Shown one piece after another: positions 50,420-58,044 of a stretch of DNA of 64,000 nt. The stretch's first letter is position 1. Each line of letters begins with the position of its first letter. The position numbers and the translations under genes were made by a program. Under the pieces are notes generated by a model that was given only the letters and a program-made list of their open reading frames with translations, was not told the origin of the DNA and searched no databases. The DNA comes from Bacteroidota bacterium (GTDB lineage: Bacteria; Bacteroidota; Bacteroidia; Chitinophagales; Chitinophagaceae), in assembly GCA_947460175.1 (NCBI GenBank), contig CANHGW010000003.1, forward strand, positions 1-64,000, given 5' to 3'.

Positions 50420-51400
50420 ATGGAAAATAAGGAATTAAAATTTGATTTATTTGATGTCATCCGAGTCGGCATCAAATGGAAGAAATACATACTAGGATTA
50501 GCAATAGCTGCTTCATTGATAGCTAGTATATATTACTTTATTGAAAAAAATACATACCAAGCTTATGGATCATTTTTTCCTGCTTCGGCAGTCATGAGTG
50601 GCCGAATTAATCTATTCAGAGAAACAAATCAAGAATGGATCGATTTTTTTGGTGGTGAAAACGAGGTAGATCGTGCATCTGTTGTAGGTAACTCAGCCAA
50701 TGTCATTTCTTACCTTATAGATACTTTTAAAATATCGGATCATTATAAAATTGACACTAAAAATGACCCCGATGGCGCTAAGAAGGTTTATAAAAAATTC
50801 ATGAAGAATTTTTCGATTAGTCGATCAGGGTTCAAACACATAGAGGTTGTTTTTACAGATCAGGACAATCAATTTGCATACAAAGTAGTCAATGAAGCGA
50901 TGAACCGTATCGACGATCAATTACGAAAATTATATATCAGTGTTAATACTCATTTAGCTGCTGCCATCGATAATCGATTAGATTCTATCAGCACATCATT
51001 AAATATGTATACCGACTCGCTTGTAAACTTGCGAGTACAATACAATATATATGATTTGATAGGACCAGGTAGAAAAAATATGGTCAACTTTACACCTCGT
51101 TCGAGTGGTGTTCAATATGCTAAGGGTATAGAAGCCATTCAAAATATAGAAGAGATCAAAGATAAACTAGCAATGGATAGAGCTAAATACATGTCTTTAT
51201 CCAATGAGTTTAAAACATCGACCTATGGAGGTTTCCCTATGATACACGTAACTCAATGGGCTACACCCAATGGGCCCAAAGCTGGACCTTTTAGAATATT
51301 AGGCGTATTGACGGTTTTCTTTGCAAGTTTAGTATTCGGATTACTATTAGCTATTTTAATTGATTTGTTTGGGTCTAACAAAGAGCGACTAAATGCATGA
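50420..51400 (+). CDS. Wzz-type chain-length determinant protein
   Basis: A 326-residue polysaccharide co-polymerase. The N-terminal cytoplasmic start (DLFDVIRVGIKWKKYI) and first membrane helix (about 25-45) precede a periplasmic coiled region with DRASVVGNSANVISYLIDTF and KVVNEAMNRIDDQLRKLYI. A long helical segment and a second membrane helix (about 285-318, GPFRILGVLTVFFASLVFGLLLAILIDLF) follow with the Pro-rich lead-in ATPNGPKAGPF. No kinase domain is attached, so it is a PCP1/2-like regulator of chain length. It overlaps the next gene by 4 nt. Confidence 0.88.
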   Translation: MENKELKFDLFDVIRVGIKWKKYILGLAIAASLIASIYYFIEKNTYQAYGSFFPASAVMSGRINLFRETNQEWIDFFGGENEVDRASVVGNSANVISYLIDTFKISDHYKIDTKNDPDGAKKVYKKFMKNFSISRSGFKHIEVVFTDQDNQFAYKVVNEAMNRIDDQLRKLYISVNTHLAAAIDNRLDSISTSLNMYTDSLVNLRVQYNIYDLIGPGRKNMVNFTPRSSGVQYAKGIEAIQNIEEIKDKLAMDRAKYMSLSNEFKTSTYGGFPMIHVTQWATPNGPKAGPFRILGVLTVFFASLVFGLLLAILIDLFGSNKERLNA

Positions 51401-52854
51401 TGAAGGCTTTTTTTCATAATGAAAAATTACTCTTCACAACTGGGTTCATAGCATTTTTGATTACAGTTGCACTTTCATTTTATTTTCAATTTCAACTTCT
51501 AATTTTTATTCCATCCATACTTTTAGTAGGATTCTTTTTTATACGAGATATTCGCAGTGCATTTTTTTTATTGATATTCTCATTACCATTTTCAATTAAC
51601 TTATCAGAGCTCACAAAATTAAATTTAGATTTTCCCGACGAGCCATTGATGTTGTTACTTACCTTATTTTTTGTGTTTTTTGTTTTGTTTAATCGCAAAT
51701 CAATTGATTTTAAATCAATACTAAAAAATCCACTTGTTATAATTATTCTACTTGCATTTTGCTGGACACTTGTTTCTGTACTTCATTCTGAAAAATCTTT
51801 ACTTTCTATAAAATATATTCTGAAAAAAGTATGGTTTTTAATCCCATTTTTCTTTTTCCCAATTCTACTTTTCAACGATGAAAAAAGTATAAAAAAATCA
51901 TTTCAACTTTTACTTACTACCCTTTTTATTATCGTTGCTATAGTAGTTGTTCGTTTCAGTGCAGTTGGTTTTAGATTTGAAAAAGTTCATGACCCGCTTC
52001 AACCCTTTTTTCAAAATCATGTAATGTATGGCTCTATGGTATCATGTGCAATACCAATAACGTTTGGTGCATTTTTGTTAAGCCGTAAATTAAGTTTGCA
52101 ATGGATTTTTGCACTTTTAAGTATTGTACTGTTTCTTTTTGCTGTATATTTTTCCTATTCACGTGCAGCTTGGATGGGCGTATTGTTTGCAGGCGCTACC
52201 TTCGTGATGATCAGGCTTCGTATTATGCACTATGCCTTTTTGTTGTTTTATATTCTCGTTTTCACAGCAGTCATGTGGATGTCCAATCACAATAAATTTT
52301 TAGATTTCAAACCGAAATTTGAAAAAACCATCATGCATGAATCTCTCGAAGATCATATTATGGCAACAATACAGGGCACCGATATTTCATCGGCCGAGCG
52401 CTATTACAGATGGATTGCAGCTATCCGAATGAGTAATGATAGACCTATCACGGGTGTTGGTCCAAACAACTTTTATGATTATTACAAATCCTATACAGTT
52501 TCTTCATTTAAAACATGGGTAAGCCGAAATCCTGAGCGATCTACAACACATAACTATTTTTTATTTATGCTAGTAGAACAAGGCTATCCTGCTATGATAT
52601 TGTATGCGCTGTTGATTTTTATGATATTTTATTATGGTCAAAAGGTATATGCAAAATGTAAAGGTCGATTTGACAAAATAGTTGTAATGTCTTCTCTATG
52701 CATGATTGCAGCTTTGTTTGTAAACAATTTTTTTAGCGAACTGCTTGAAACTGATAAAATTGGAAGTTTGTTTTACCTGGGAATTGCTGCTATTATAGCA
52801 ACAGACTTACGACAAGCCAATCAGTTGAAAATATACCCTGATCAAGGTATTTAA
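51397..52854 (+). CDS. O-antigen ligase / polymerase (Wzy-WaaL-like)
   Basis: A 485-residue membrane protein with about 12 helices and a large periplasmic loop (about 300-385) between late helices. The loop contains the family-conserved Arg/His pattern RYYRWIAAIRMSNDRPITGVGPNNFYDYY, then STTHNYFLFMLVEQGYPAMILY, matching the Wzy_C signature of O-antigen ligases. It either joins repeat units or attaches them to lipid A or a carrier. The start overlaps the Wzz-like gene (ATGA), so both are translated together. Its last 21 bases contain the first copy of the TACCCT-N4-AAGGTA repeat. Confidence 0.9.
   Translation: MMKAFFHNEKLLFTTGFIAFLITVALSFYFQFQLLIFIPSILLVGFFFIRDIRSAFFLLIFSLPFSINLSELTKLNLDFPDEPLMLLLTLFFVFFVLFNRKSIDFKSILKNPLVIIILLAFCWTLVSVLHSEKSLLSIKYILKKVWFLIPFFFFPILLFNDEKSIKKSFQLLLTTLFIIVAIVVVRFSAVGFRFEKVHDPLQPFFQNHVMYGSMVSCAIPITFGAFLLSRKLSLQWIFALLSIVLFLFAVYFSYSRAAWMGVLFAGATFVMIRLRIMHYAFLLFYILVFTAVMWMSNHNKFLDFKPKFEKTIMHESLEDHIMATIQGTDISSAERYYRWIAAIRMSNDRPITGVGPNNFYDYYKSYTVSSFKTWVSRNPERSTTHNYFLFMLVEQGYPAMILYALLIFMIFYYGQKVYAKCKGRFDKIVVMSSLCMIAALFVNNFFSELLETDKIGSLFYLGIAAIIATDLRQANQLKIYPDQGI
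52834..52849. promoter_or_regulatory. Inverted repeat TACCCT-GATC-AAGGTA, likely operator of the kinase/regulator operon
   Basis: Sixteen-base near-palindrome 65 nt before the sensor-kinase ATG and exactly 23 nt before the -7-like TACATTGT. An almost identical element at 55531-55546 has the same 23-nt spacing. It resembles the 7-2-7 inverted heptamers (TACYYMT) bound by NarL-type regulators. It overlaps the 3' end of the ligase gene. Confidence 0.65.
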
Positions 52855-52872
52855 TTCGAAGTACCGACTCTG

Positions 52873-52880
52873 TACATTGT
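52873..52880 (+). promoter_or_regulatory. -7-like element TACATTGT of the kinase/regulator operon
   Basis: A degenerate TAnnTTTG (last bases GT) 34 nt before the ATG. A weak core promoter with an upstream operator is consistent with activation. Confidence 0.4.
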
Positions 52881-52913
52881 GGTAATTTTTTATTAACCCA
52901 TATTACAGCTAAA

Positions 52914-54827
52914 ATGCGTTACAAAATTATACTTACAATTCTATTTACAATATCAAGTAAATTATTTGCAACACCCATTGCTATTGATAGTTTAAGGCAA
53001 GCATACTACTCCTCTACCAATAAAGATCAACAAAAACTAATCCTACTTGAACTATGCGATAACTCTAGAATGCTTCCTATTGATACATTTCAACTCTATA
53101 CTTCGAACTTATCCAATTTTGATTATACAAATTCCACTGACAAATTAAAATCAGATTATTATCGATTAGTCTATTTCTACAAACGAGGTGATTTAGATTC
53201 GGTAGAAAAAATATATTCAAATAATATTGAAAAACTCAAATCAAATATAGCTCTTGAAATTCGTTATAATTTGCATTATGGATACTATCTGATAAAAAAG
53301 AATCAATTTAAAGAAGCAATCAACACTCAATTACACGTCTTGAAACTAGCCGAACAAACCAATGACAGTTTGTATATTGTAGCTTCGAAAAATGGTATTG
53401 GATGGGCCTATATGGAACTTTTCCAATTGGATGATGCCATTCAGTGGTTTCACAAAGCATTGCAAACAACCCAAAATGAGGACTATTTAAAAAATGCAGG
53501 TACCGTTTATAATAATTTAGCATCTTGTTTTGGAAATTTAGGAAAATTTGATTCTGCCTATTATTACAATACAAAAGCCATTCAATCTGCAGAATTCAAC
53601 AATGATTTATTGTCAATTGCAAATGCTTATTTCATAAAAGGCGATATTTACATAGTTGAAAATAATTATAAATCTGCTCAAGAATATTTTTTGAAAGGGT
53701 TTGAAATACATAAAAAATATGGAGATCCCTTTTTTATAGTATCCGATATGTCAAATATTGCTATCCATTATGCCAATATGGGAATGACCGACAAGGGAAT
53801 ACAACTTGCCAATGAATGTATTCAATATGCCAATGATCATAATCTTAAAGGAAAATTATTTATGGCTTATGAGGCTCTATCTATAAACTATGAGAAATCG
53901 GGGCAATATAAATTGCAGGCAATAGCACTGAAAAAAATGTCGGACATCAAGGATTCAACCTATCAACAAAATTCTGAAAAGGCAATAGCCGAAATGAATG
54001 CTAAATATGAAACTGAAAAAAAAGAATCCATTATTCATTTACAAGAACTTCAATTAAATAAAAAAAATATATTAATTATAGGCGGTATTTCAGTATTTCT
54101 ATTGAGTAGTTTTTTAGCTTTTGCAGCATATCGAAATCATAGACATAAACAAGACAAACGACTTCAATTTGAAATCATGCATCAGCAGGACCTTTCTACC
54201 AAAGCTGTAATAGAAGCAGAAGAGCATGAAAGACAACGAATTGCTGCAGATTTACATGATGGAATTGGTCAACTACTTACAGCAGCTCGATTAAATATGG
54301 AAGCACTCAAAAGCAGACTTAATCTTAACACAGAAGAAGATAAATTAATCTGTCAAAAAGCTCTTTCGCTCGTTGACGAAAGTTGCAAAGAGGTAAGAAA
54401 TGTATCACATAATATCATGCCCAATTCTCTTATAAAATCTGGATTAGGGAATGCCCTTAAAGATTTTATTGATAAAATCGAAAGCAACAAATTAAGAATA
54501 AATTTAAATACCACTGGTATAAACGAAATCGACGAATCAAATACCGAGTTATTTGTATATCGAGTGATACAAGAAGCTGTAAACAATGTAATAAAACATT
54601 CAAAAGCCAGTCAGCTCGATATTTCTATCATCAACGAGCCAGAAGGATTAAGAGTTACCATTGAAGATAATGGCATTGGATTTAATAAATCTGATTTAGT
54701 CACAAAAAATGGCATAGGAATGAAAAACATTAAAGCACGTATCGAATTTTTAAAAGGCACCTTGGATATAGATTCTAAACCAGGAAAAGGCACCCTGATT
54801 GCCTTTTTTATACCGAATCAAAAATAG
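52914..54827 (+). CDS. TPR-containing sensor histidine kinase (NarX/DegS-type HisKA_3)
   Basis: A 637-residue sensor kinase. An N-terminal signal (about 1-20) exports the sensor region, which contains about six tetratricopeptide repeats (about 115-345, for example SIANAYFIKGDIYIVENNYKSAQEY). One membrane helix at about 385-405 follows. The HisKA_3 dimerisation domain has H448 in DLHDGIGQLLTAARLNMEAL, and the HATPase domain has N-x-x-NVIKHSKA, EDNGIGF and GIGMKNIKARI. The N-terminal repeats are periplasmic by topology, so the signal is presumably a protein or peptide. It lies 54 nt before its response regulator, and the shared operator precedes it. Confidence 0.93.
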   Translation: MRYKIILTILFTISSKLFATPIAIDSLRQAYYSSTNKDQQKLILLELCDNSRMLPIDTFQLYTSNLSNFDYTNSTDKLKSDYYRLVYFYKRGDLDSVEKIYSNNIEKLKSNIALEIRYNLHYGYYLIKKNQFKEAINTQLHVLKLAEQTNDSLYIVASKNGIGWAYMELFQLDDAIQWFHKALQTTQNEDYLKNAGTVYNNLASCFGNLGKFDSAYYYNTKAIQSAEFNNDLLSIANAYFIKGDIYIVENNYKSAQEYFLKGFEIHKKYGDPFFIVSDMSNIAIHYANMGMTDKGIQLANECIQYANDHNLKGKLFMAYEALSINYEKSGQYKLQAIALKKMSDIKDSTYQQNSEKAIAEMNAKYETEKKESIIHLQELQLNKKNILIIGGISVFLLSSFLAFAAYRNHRHKQDKRLQFEIMHQQDLSTKAVIEAEEHERQRIAADLHDGIGQLLTAARLNMEALKSRLNLNTEEDKLICQKALSLVDESCKEVRNVSHNIMPNSLIKSGLGNALKDFIDKIESNKLRINLNTTGINEIDESNTELFVYRVIQEAVNNVIKHSKASQLDISIINEPEGLRVTIEDNGIGFNKSDLVTKNGIGMKNIKARIEFLKGTLDIDSKPGKGTLIAFFIPNQK

Positions 54828-54881
54828 TATCAATATTATTATTTTAAAATCCTATTTTGTGGAAGATAAAAATCATTTGAA

Positions 54882-55514
54882 ATGGCAGTTTCTATTGCAA
54901 TACTTGACGATCATCAAATAGTCATCGACGGGCTTAAGCTTCTACTTTCAGATCATCCTCAATTTAATATTGTTGCTGAATACAACAAAGGATTTGACTT
55001 ATTAGAAGCACTTGAAAAACTCTCTGTCGATATTGTACTCACAGACATTATGATGCCAGATATGGATGGATATGAAGTAGCATTAAGGATTAAGAAAGAA
55101 TTTCCACATGTAAAAGTGTTGGCCTTGTCTATGAATGGAGAAGGCATGTTAATTGATAAAATGATCGAAGAGGCAGATGTAGCAGGCTATTTATTAAAAA
55201 CAACCGACAAAAAAGAATTAGTTACAGCACTTGAATCAGTTAGTAAAGGTGATACATATTTTGCAAAAGAAATATTAGAAGAATTACATTCTTTTCAAAA
55301 AATAAAAAAAGAAAACGAAGCTATTCATCTTACTTCACGTGAAATTGATATAATAAAGTGTATAGCTGAAGACTTAAGTAACAAACAAATTGCAGATAAG
55401 CTCTTTATCAGTGAGCGAACAGTGGAAACACATCGTAAAAATATATTTCGCAAAACCAATATGCACTCAGCAATTAGTTTAATTGATTTTGCTAAAAAAA
55501 GAAAACTCATTTAA
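54882..55514 (+). CDS. NarL/FixJ-type response regulator
   Basis: A 210-residue regulator with a receiver domain (about 1-120). The acidic pocket is DD at 9-10, the phospho-acceptor is D55 in VLTDIMMPDMDGYE, and the conserved Lys is in YLLKTTDKKEL. The LuxR-type HTH (about 145-205) reads LTSREIDIIKCIAEDLSNKQIADKLFISERTVETHRKNIF. It is the cognate partner of the adjacent TPR kinase (54-nt spacing). The inverted repeats upstream of its own operon and of the SUMF1 gene resemble NarL-family sites, so it probably autoregulates and activates the downstream module. Confidence 0.94.
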   Translation: MAVSIAILDDHQIVIDGLKLLLSDHPQFNIVAEYNKGFDLLEALEKLSVDIVLTDIMMPDMDGYEVALRIKKEFPHVKVLALSMNGEGMLIDKMIEEADVAGYLLKTTDKKELVTALESVSKGDTYFAKEILEELHSFQKIKKENEAIHLTSREIDIIKCIAEDLSNKQIADKLFISERTVETHRKNIFRKTNMHSAISLIDFAKKRKLI

Positions 55515-55530
55515 TCCAAATTTCAAAATA

Positions 55531-55546
55531 TACCCTAATCAGGGTA
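55531..55546. promoter_or_regulatory. Perfect inverted repeat TACCCT-AATC-AGGGTA, likely response-regulator operator
   Basis: Sixteen-base inverted repeat with perfect 6-bp arms (7 bp including the flanking A/T), 23 nt upstream of the -7 element TAGTTTTG (55570-55577). It matches the element before the kinase gene in sequence and spacing. Confidence 0.72.
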
Positions 55547-55569
55547 TTGTATACAGTTTCATATAAAAG

Positions 55570-55577
55570 TAGTTTTG
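55570..55577 (+). promoter_or_regulatory. -7 element TAGTTTTG of the SUMF1-like gene
   Basis: TAnnTTTG match, 26 nt before the ATG at 55603; it aligns with the kinase-operon -7 element relative to the repeat. Confidence 0.6.
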
Positions 55578-55602: not shown

Positions 55603-57066
55603 ATGAAAAAACTATTCTTATCCGTTATTGTATTGCTGGTAGCAACAGTAACAACATTCGCAAACAACATTCAGATTTCTAACACATCCTTAAGTGGACA
55701 AAATGCAGCGTCAAATTTCACCCTAGTGAATTTTGATATTAACTGGGATAACAGTTGGCGTACTAGCACCAATGAGTCAAACTATGATGGCGCTTGGATT
55801 TTTGTAAAATTCCGTAAACAAGGTACATCTTTGTGGAAGCATGCAACCTTAAATTATGTATCACCAGGTACTCCTGCCGCTTGTGGACATACTCAACCTT
55901 CAGGTTCTACCTTAAAACAATCAGCTGATGGAAAAGGAGCATGGATATACCGCGATGCAGATGGTATTGGAAATGTATATTTCGGTGGTGCTCAACTACG
56001 TTGGAACTATGGTGTTGACGGTGTATTAGATGCAGATAGCGTTGAAATCAATGTTTATGCAGTAGAAATGGTAAATGTTCCTACTGGAGCTTATACTTTA
56101 GGCAGTGGTGGTAGTGAATGGAATTGCTTTGTTGCCTATGGTGCAGCAGCTCCAACTACAAACCCTTATCAAGTTGTTTCTAATGCAGCCATTCAAGTAG
56201 GTCCAACTTTAGGTAATTTATATTATGGACAAGCATCAACTGGTTTTAATACTTTTTTGCAATCAGGTGGTGATTTATTGGGACCTATTCCCGCTAACTA
56301 TCCAAAAGGATTTAATTCATTTTGGATTATGAAATATGAAGCAAGTCAACAACAATATTGCGACTTTATAAACAATCTTGATTTAGCTCGAGCTACAGTT
56401 AGAAATGGATCTTCGCCTGCATTTACTGGAACCCACCCAGGATTAATTGCACCACAACCTGAAAGAGCATATAATAATGTAAACTGGCCTGACTTAGCAG
56501 CATTTGCAGATTGGTCATGTTTGAGACCATATACTGAAATGGAATTTGAAAAAGCTTGTCGTGGAACCAATATATCACCTGTTCCAAACGAATATCCATG
56601 GGGAAATACAACAATCAATAATATTGGAACTATCAATTATGATGGGCTAGACAATGAGATTGCATCTTCTGGAAATTCAAACTACTCAAGTGGTTTGCCA
56701 CGTCGTTGTGGCATTTTCGCAACTCCATTGTCTAATAGAGAGGCAAGTGGTGGCAGCTACTATGGTGTAATGGATATGGGAGGCAATGTATGGGAAATGA
56801 CTGTAGGAGTTGGATCCCCTTCTGGCAGAGCTTTTGTAGCTGCTACACATGGGGACGGAACATTAAATGCAGCTGGCAATACTGATATTACAGTTTGGGC
56901 AAATTTAAATACTGGCTTAGCAGCAAGAGGTGGTGGATTCGCTAATCCATATGGATATGGTGGAAGTGCAGGGTATCAACAAACTTCTGGTAGATACTAT
57001 TGTACATCAGATTTTAGTGCTAGAAATTTATACACCGGTATTCGTTTAGCTCGTACTGCAGAATAA
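55603..57066 (+). CDS. Secreted SUMF1/FGE-fold protein
   Basis: A 487-residue exported protein; signal peptide 1-20 (ending in TFAN). The first part (about 22-190) is a beta-rich domain of unknown type (INWDNSWRTSTNESNYDGAWIFVKFR). The second half (about 225-487) is a formylglycine-generating-enzyme (SUMF1) fold: FWIMKYEASQQQYCDFIN, WSCLRPYTEMEFEKACRG, YGVMDMGGNVWEMTVG, a G-rich ARGGGFANPYG segment and the end YTGIRLARTAE. I cannot locate the FGE copper-binding cysteine pair with confidence, so it may act as a ligand-binding fold, as in gliding/cell-surface proteins. It is probably co-transcribed with the repeat protein 30 nt downstream. Confidence 0.85.
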   Translation: MKKLFLSVIVLLVATVTTFANNIQISNTSLSGQNAASNFTLVNFDINWDNSWRTSTNESNYDGAWIFVKFRKQGTSLWKHATLNYVSPGTPAACGHTQPSGSTLKQSADGKGAWIYRDADGIGNVYFGGAQLRWNYGVDGVLDADSVEINVYAVEMVNVPTGAYTLGSGGSEWNCFVAYGAAAPTTNPYQVVSNAAIQVGPTLGNLYYGQASTGFNTFLQSGGDLLGPIPANYPKGFNSFWIMKYEASQQQYCDFINNLDLARATVRNGSSPAFTGTHPGLIAPQPERAYNNVNWPDLAAFADWSCLRPYTEMEFEKACRGTNISPVPNEYPWGNTTINNIGTINYDGLDNEIASSGNSNYSSGLPRRCGIFATPLSNREASGGSYYGVMDMGGNVWEMTVGVGSPSGRAFVAATHGDGTLNAAGNTDITVWANLNTGLAARGGGFANPYGYGGSAGYQQTSGRYYCTSDFSARNLYTGIRLARTAE

Positions 57067-57096: not shown

Positions 57097-58044
57097 ATGA
57101 ATACTAAAATAATAAAACTAGGATGGTGCCTGCTATTCATACTTTTTCATCAAGTCGTATTAGCTCAGAATAATGCCATTTTCATTGGAGGTACAAATGA
57201 TGGCTGGAACAAGGCCAGCTTCGAACAAACTGGAAATTCAATATTCAAAGGCGGTACAAGTGATGGTTGGAATTCTCAACTCTATTCATCTGCTACAACC
57301 AATATATTTAGTGGTGGTACCAGCGATGGTTGGAATGTGGGCAACTACAATTCTCAATATGATGAAGTACGAAAAGGAGGCACAAGTGATGGATGGAATG
57401 TAGGCAACTATAATTCGCCATATGATGATGTAAGAAAAGGTGGTATTGGTGATGGTTGGGCTTCAACCTATCAACCTTCAGGTCCTTTGCCAGTTGTTTT
57501 CATAAGTTTTATTGCGAATAAAACGAACTTCGACACAGATGCATTGCTCCAATGGAATGTAGCATCGGAACTAAATGCAGACCGCTATGAAGTAGAACGA
57601 AGCTTGGATGCAGTAAGTTTTACTAAAATAGGCGAAGTAAAAGCAACAGGCAATTCACAGACTGAAATTAAATATAATTTCACTGATGAAAATCCTGCAC
57701 AAGGTCAAAATTACTATAGACTCAAACAACTGGATAAGGATGGTAAATACATCTATACGCCAGTAAGAGTGCTTAATTTTAGTGACAATTCAGAACTTGT
57801 AAATATTTATCCAAACCCGAGCTCTGGAAAAGTAACGGTTTCACTTACAAGCGCTTATATGAACTCAAATGCCGCATTGAATGTAATCAATATGAATGGT
57901 GCCGTTGTATATCATGTCAAATTGGTAGATTACAAACTACCAACCTTGGAAATGGATTTAAACAATCTTGCCTCGGGAACTTATATGATTCATTTGAATA
58001 GTGGCACACATAATTATGGCGTAAAACTAGTCATCGTTAAATAA
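57097..58044 (+). CDS. T9SS type A protein with five 21-residue GG-x-x-DGW repeats
   Basis: A 315-residue secreted protein. Signal peptide 1-24 (ending in VLAQ). Residues about 28-125 hold five repeats with the core GGTSDGWN (GGTNDGWN in the first, GGIGDGWA in the last), the GG pairs beginning at residues 31, 52, 73, 94 and 115, a period of exactly 21. A fibronectin-like region (about 130-225; LQWNVASELNADRYEVERS, NYYRLKQLDKDGKY) and a type A T9SS sorting domain (about 235-315; YPNPSSGKVTV, NLASGTYMIHL) follow. The repeats may bind calcium or glycan. It follows the SUMF1-like gene and precedes a terminator. Confidence 0.88.
   Translation: MNTKIIKLGWCLLFILFHQVVLAQNNAIFIGGTNDGWNKASFEQTGNSIFKGGTSDGWNSQLYSSATTNIFSGGTSDGWNVGNYNSQYDEVRKGGTSDGWNVGNYNSPYDDVRKGGIGDGWASTYQPSGPLPVVFISFIANKTNFDTDALLQWNVASELNADRYEVERSLDAVSFTKIGEVKATGNSQTEIKYNFTDENPAQGQNYYRLKQLDKDGKYIYTPVRVLNFSDNSELVNIYPNPSSGKVTVSLTSAYMNSNAALNVINMNGAVVYHVKLVDYKLPTLEMDLNNLASGTYMIHLNSGTHNYGVKLVIVK
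57187..57459 (+). repeat. Tandem repeat of five 63-bp units coding for GG-x-x-DGW motifs
   Basis: In-frame minisatellite-like array in the preceding gene with a period of 63 bases (21 codons). The third and fourth units share most codons (GWNVGNYNS in each), pointing to recent duplication. Confidence 0.85.

Follow-up and report, generated by a model that had tools for sequence, protein, structure and literature searches.

The window analysed here is a stretch of 64,000 nucleotides (nt) from a Bacteroidota bacterium of the family Chitinophagaceae (assembly GCA_947460175.1, contig CANHGW010000003.1, positions 1 to 64,000 of the forward strand). It carries the genes of a TPR sensor kinase and of a NarL/LuxR-type response regulator, followed by those of a SUMF1-like protein and a repeat protein, and a 16-bp inverted repeat is found in front of both the kinase gene and the SUMF1-like gene. 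In our reading, which we hold to be highly probable, this repeat is the operator of the regulator and defines a self-amplifying regulon of the NarL type, in which surface genes are activated from a position about 43 bases before the transcription start. The relevant features are listed below (HTH, helix-turn-helix).

52834..52849, + strand: NarL-type inverted repeat TACCCT-GATC-AAGGTA (TACCCTGATCAAGGTA), 5' of the kinase gene and within the final codons of the wzy-like gene
52873..52880, + strand: weak -7-like element TACATTGT, beginning 23 nt past the kinase-side repeat
52914..54827, + strand: TPR sensor histidine kinase (TPR repeats, HisKA_3, HATPase_c), identified with Pfam
54882..55514, + strand: NarL/LuxR-type response regulator, receiver and GerE HTH, recognition helix SERTVETHRKNIFRKT, identified from Pfam, PDB relatives, orthologues and HTH comparison
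55531..55546, + strand: NarL-type inverted repeat TACCCT-AATC-AGGGTA (TACCCTAATCAGGGTA), between the regulator and SUMF1-like genes
55547..55549, + strand: TTG, candidate -33 element by its sequence, abutting the second repeat
55570..55577, + strand: -7 element TAGTTTTG (Bacteroidetes consensus TAnnTTTG), beginning 23 nt past the SUMF1-side repeat
55603..57066, + strand: secreted SUMF1-like protein with an FGE-sulfatase domain (Pfam; orthologues with the site), proposed direct target
57097..58044, + strand: repeat protein with GGTSDGWN repeats and a type IX secretion sorting domain, likely in the same operon as the SUMF1-like gene
51397..52854, + strand: Wzy/O-antigen-ligase-like protein (Pfam Wzy_C; synteny with the regulator kept in the genus), whose 3' end holds the kinase promoter site
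50420..51400, + strand: chain-length-determinant-like gene of the upstream surface-polysaccharide cluster, named from position and synteny; a Pfam search gave no match

Both repeats have exactly the positions and sequences given in the initial annotation, and 23 nt do separate each of them from the -7-like elements that start at 52873 and 55570. The first repeat precedes the kinase gene as described, but it is not intergenic, since the residues YPDQGI at the end of the wzy-like product are encoded by it (..KIYPDQGI*, open reading frame (ORF) 51397-52854). The kinase promoter site (52820-52857) is thus in frame in the wzy end, and in the related genome G005 the end of wzy is likewise formed by the site (YPSKGIA*). 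A receiver domain (PF00072, 1.3e-22) and a GerE/LuxR HTH (PF00196, 4.6e-20) assign the regulator to the NarL/FixJ (LuxR-type) family, and the adjacent kinase has the HisKA_3 (PF07730, 1.4e-13) and HATPase_c domains of a partner kinase. A PDB search with the regulator returned NarL (1a04, 8.4e-25) and, as the best sequence match, VraR (7ve6, 4gvp).

The phasing of the two repeats had been considered hard to explain by chance. The literal 6+6 motif by itself is not above chance: its two matches in the window are equalled or exceeded in 23% of shuffled windows. The genome-wide scan proposed as a check, with TACCCTnnnnAGGGTA and up to two mismatches, revealed no enrichment (63 matches, versus 91 for the reversed control); taken alone, it would have led to a wrong refutation of the finding. 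The orthologous promoter sequences described below indicate that the conserved part of the palindrome is TACCC-N6-GGGTA (core TACC-N8-GGTA) rather than TACCCT-N4-AGGGTA, so that the palindrome itself stands and its arm is reduced from TACCCT to TACCC, with TACC as the core. A search pattern that retains the ATC centre, TACCYTRATYARGGTA, was rejected: hardly any relative has a site that it detects, and hence the centre of the repeat is not its conserved part. We searched a genus set of 14 genomes, consisting of the genome under study (G000) and 13 others, for TACCC-N6-GGGTA followed within 8-38 nt by TAnnTTTG. There are 25 exact matches and none in the reversed control. The spacing is 23 nt in 12 of them, 22 nt in 10 and 24 nt in one, the last two being spaced by 35 and 37 nt; 23 of the 25 thus fall at 22-24 nt (binomial about 1e-21). 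The element with its 22-23 nt phase to TAnnTTTG, together with its conservation at orthologous genes, is therefore far above chance and clearly real.

We compiled 57 sites, the arms of which are partly set by the search pattern. They share the 16-bp inverted repeat TACCC-N6-GGGTA with TACC-rich heptamer arms, as in a 7-2-7 operator. TTG directly follows the repeat in 22 of them, and 27 have a TTG at -33. In three places, a single repeat is flanked on both sides by -7-like elements (G000:C43:18593-18669, G003:C133:24205-24281 and G005:C15:10645-10721), an arrangement compatible with divergent promoters sharing one operator, with the second-strand promoters weaker.

Regulator orthologues (59-77% identity) are present in six of the 13 other genomes of the genus. 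The gene order is kept at these loci, with the chain-length gene, wzy, the kinase, the regulator, the SUMF1-like gene and the repeat protein in succession, the kinase or the SUMF1-like gene being absent in some. The SUMF1-like gene has the site upstream in G000, G002, G004, G005 and G011. It reads TACCCAATCAAGGGTA in both G005 and G002, followed after 23 nt by the -7 boxes TAATTTTG and TAGTTTTG, respectively; in G004 it is TACCCTATTCATGGTA, with TAATTTTG after 23 nt, and in G011 TACCCAATCAAAGGTA, with TATTTTTG after 22 nt. A SUMF1-like homologue of G003, located on another contig away from the regulator, has also retained the site. The kinase is preceded by it in G000, G004 and G005; in G005 (TACCCATCTAAGGGTA) and G004 (TACCCTGAATCGGGTA) it lies 23 nt before an imperfect -7 box, TACCTTCA and TAATTTCA, respectively. 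G011 has no kinase beside its regulator, and an unlinked TPR kinase of this genome (split ORFs 433-1539 and 1620-2486 of L179) bears the site. Both that kinase (L179:433-2486) and the SUMF1-like gene of G011 (L053:7654-9058) are in two ORFs, which may be real breaks or assembly frameshifts. As for the repeat protein, it has about five GGTSDGWN-type repeats, and its gene is the 3' neighbour of the SUMF1-like gene in five genomes, here and in G002, G004, G005 and G011. The comparison of orthologous promoters thus bears out the motif and its 22-23 nt spacing at both types of genes, in agreement with the autoregulation and the control of the SUMF1/repeat-protein operon initially put forward.

Within the genus, the site and the regulator occur together without exception. 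All 25 exact matches are confined to the seven regulator-bearing genomes, and the seven genomes without an orthologue have none. The core TACC-N8-GGTA gives the same picture, with 7 matches in G000, 7 in G002, 6 in G003, 7 in G004, 9 in G005, 4 in G008 and 6 in G011 (46 in total; controls 2), and no match in the seven regulator-less genomes (controls 2). The link to the regulator is further supported by the gene of a DUF3575 protein, which has the site upstream in six of the seven regulator-bearing genomes, G008 being the exception. In G007 and G012, which do not have the regulator, the DUF3575 orthologue is retained after what seems to be the same upstream gene end and with a -7-like box, and the repeat is missing. 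In a PurK tree, the regulator-bearing genomes do not form one clade, with weak support, too weak for counting loss events.

The proposed scope of the regulon, one operon in addition to the regulator's own promoter, was an underestimate, as we found about 13 promoters of this type in this genome. The first gene downstream was read for most of the compiled sites. Its ATG start codon is at a median distance of 19 nt past the -7 box, and 48 of 50 target products have signal peptide-like sequences, versus 23 of 53 for the ORFs of the window (judged from hydrophobicity with a simple rule). Among the orthologous targets that recur are the SUMF1-like protein, the TPR kinase, the DUF3575 outer-membrane-like protein, RCC1-repeat and LamG proteins, small lipoproteins and a number of secreted proteins that are uncharacterised. 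A type IX secretion sorting domain is found in several targets.

How might this system operate? The TPR kinase (52914-54827) presumably phosphorylates the regulator, a dimer of which would bind TACCC-N6-GGGTA just 5' of the -33 region, with its centre some 43 bp before the start. For Flavobacterium, the TAnnTTTG box has been placed at -12 to -5 (PMC9723704). If the same numbering applies here, the repeat extends from about -51 to -36 and is centred at -43.5 or -42.5, close to the figure of about 40 bases given in the initial annotation. A centre between about -40 and -45 in fixed phase is that of a class II activator site, which makes activation the best inference. The bound regulator would then recruit RNA polymerase to sigma-A promoters with a TAnnTTTG -7 box, namely its own kinase promoter, that of the SUMF1/repeat-protein operon and those of some ten further operons for secreted proteins, outer-membrane proteins and lipoproteins. 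The regulon would serve to remodel the cell surface, in concert with the polysaccharide cluster to which it is linked.

The element is also found beyond the genus. Among the scanned loci that encode more distant members of the regulator family, a clear site is present only in G047, from another genus of the same taxonomic family, where a kinase and a regulator 48% identical to that of the window are followed by TACCCAATACTGGGTA, then after 22 nt by TAATTTTG, and then by the gene of a secreted-looking protein of 1407 residues. A scan of 84,980 genomes with TACCC-N6-GGGTATTG-N19/20-TAnnTTTG returned at least 120 matches. Nearly all those among the matches listed that have titles (80) are from Bacteroidota, and 109 of the 120 listed are outside long ORFs. 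In nine of these 120, a LuxR-type regulator gene of the same strand is found 26-193 nt upstream of the repeat, versus about 0.05 predicted by a rough density estimate. The nine include G005 and one apparent orthologous set (L238, L285, L307), leaving about seven independent cases. Sites downstream of a LuxR-type regulator gene occur in G047 and UBA4407 (regulators 48-55% identical), Spirosoma, Lacihabitans, Seonamhaeicola and others. These regulator-adjacent sites tie the element to NarL/LuxR-type regulators in general, and regulators outside the genus may share the operator. We give an even chance to the broader proposal that TACCC-N6-GGGTA, with TAnnTTTG following at a distance of 22-24 nt, is a general Bacteroidota promoter element, by which many NarL/LuxR-type regulators would activate linked and unlinked genes through what is essentially the E. 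coli NarL operator. If so, specificity among co-resident regulators would have to reside outside the repeat arms, or else there would be cross-talk. Three gene families outside the genus were seen behind the same palindrome and phase: in the set comprising L238, L285, L307, L262, L266, L304, L312, L323, L326 and L331, a lipoprotein family (..VPTTYNF..) directly follows a LuxR-type regulator, and cysteine-synthase-like and FeoA-like genes (named by eye) are found in the same set. Lastly, L272, titled Glaciecola amylolytica, a gammaproteobacterium, has the element of the Bacteroidota type in front of a gene similar to one of Fluviicola (L297), which may reflect contamination or transfer.

The distribution of the element raises the question of which regulator binds it. 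The palindrome might be recognised by another LuxR/NarL-type paralogue, or by several with a common operator, the neighbouring regulator not being the main one. We regard this as unlikely, although two observations weigh on its side. The genome under study has 14 regulator-like matches, and its LuxR-type paralogues could share the operator; phylum-wide, where at least 120 matches were found, the element adjoins several different LuxR-type regulators just 27-39% identical to that of the window. Other findings count against our own proposal. The SERTVETHRKNIFRKT helix also occurs in the regulators of G016, G032, G036 and G052, and no site is found at their loci, their genomes holding only one to three core sites each. 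G008 and G003 carry the regulator and have no site beside it at the scanned loci, and the pattern of presence and absence in the genus may reflect few evolutionary events. Against another paralogue as the main binder, the genus sites are found exactly in the genomes that have this orthologue, and G007, which has 23 other regulator-like matches and not this one, has no site. Moreover, the site flanks both the regulator and the kinase in several genomes.

The nature of the response must also be considered. Using the same operator next to -33, the regulator might instead block RNA polymerase at the promoters of the surface proteins and of the kinase gene, the latter amounting to negative autoregulation. 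This is a live minority alternative, to which we attach a low probability. Many -7 boxes are near consensus and apparently strong enough without an activator, the -33 TTG abuts the repeat in the 22 sites mentioned above, and NarL itself represses some promoters (PMC4549865). Nevertheless, a fixed-phase centre at about -43 is where class II activators bind, and the 7-2-7 sites through which E. coli NarL switches on napF and yeaR are close to -44 and -43 (PMC4549865); repressor sites, for their part, require no fixed phase and more often overlie the -7 element or the start. That only about half of the sites have a -33 TTG fits an activator replacing this element. By far the least credible explanation is that the two repeats resemble each other by chance, the genome being AT-rich, or that they belong to an RNA hairpin or terminator: the literal motif is not enriched genome-wide and a 6-bp hairpin could form between the arms, but phase, conservation and co-loss contradict it. 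A hairpin or terminator was rejected because the repeat is 5' of the predicted start, and hence not part of the transcript downstream, and is not followed by a T-run. Activation by the neighbouring regulator is thus the reading that we retain.

LuxR/NarL-type regulators are numerous in Bacteroidota. The literature searched, in which few subscription journals are represented, yielded neither a genome-wide operator or regulon published for such a regulator in this phylum nor an operator of this form. The locus provides an operator that can be tested, a fixed geometry of the promoter and a list of targets, namely secreted, outer-membrane and type IX-sorted proteins, with a link to a polysaccharide cluster, and the search pattern can be used to predict such regulons elsewhere in the phylum. 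The regulon is of a known kind, that of NarL-type two-component systems; its operator, promoter geometry and target set are new, in an uncharacterised Chitinophagaceae lineage.

The closest known system is E. coli NarL, with which the regulator shares the family and the receiver and GerE HTH architecture. The NarL dimer binds inverted heptamers two bases apart, with TACCCCTAAAGGGGTA as an engineered high-affinity site (PMC4549865). The outer five bases on each side of that site, engineered at narG -89, are identical to those of TACCC-N6-GGGTA, in line with the 7-2-7 site initially predicted, and the activating position near -43/-44 recalls that of napF and yeaR. In contrast, the sixth base of the arm and the centre differ from the E. 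coli sites, and here the phase is nearly constant and the promoter has a Bacteroidetes -7 element. Unlike in NarX-NarL, the kinase has TPR repeats and no NarX-type nitrate sensor, and the targets are surface and secreted proteins rather than respiratory functions. The staphylococcal VraR, which controls a cell-wall stress regulon, is likewise a NarL-family regulator, from a different phylum and with a different type of kinase. As for Bacteroidetes, FimS of Porphyromonas gingivalis is the TPR sensor kinase of a two-component pair (PMC5706477), and FimR directly activates mfa1, a surface-structure gene, by binding to its promoter (PMC1974823). The likeness is in architecture, a TPR kinase with a LuxR-type regulator, and in the kind of target; FimS/FimR controls fimbriae. 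The resemblance to FimS and the direct activation of a surface-structure gene by FimR suggest that the TPR sensor described here might respond to a protein or envelope cue.

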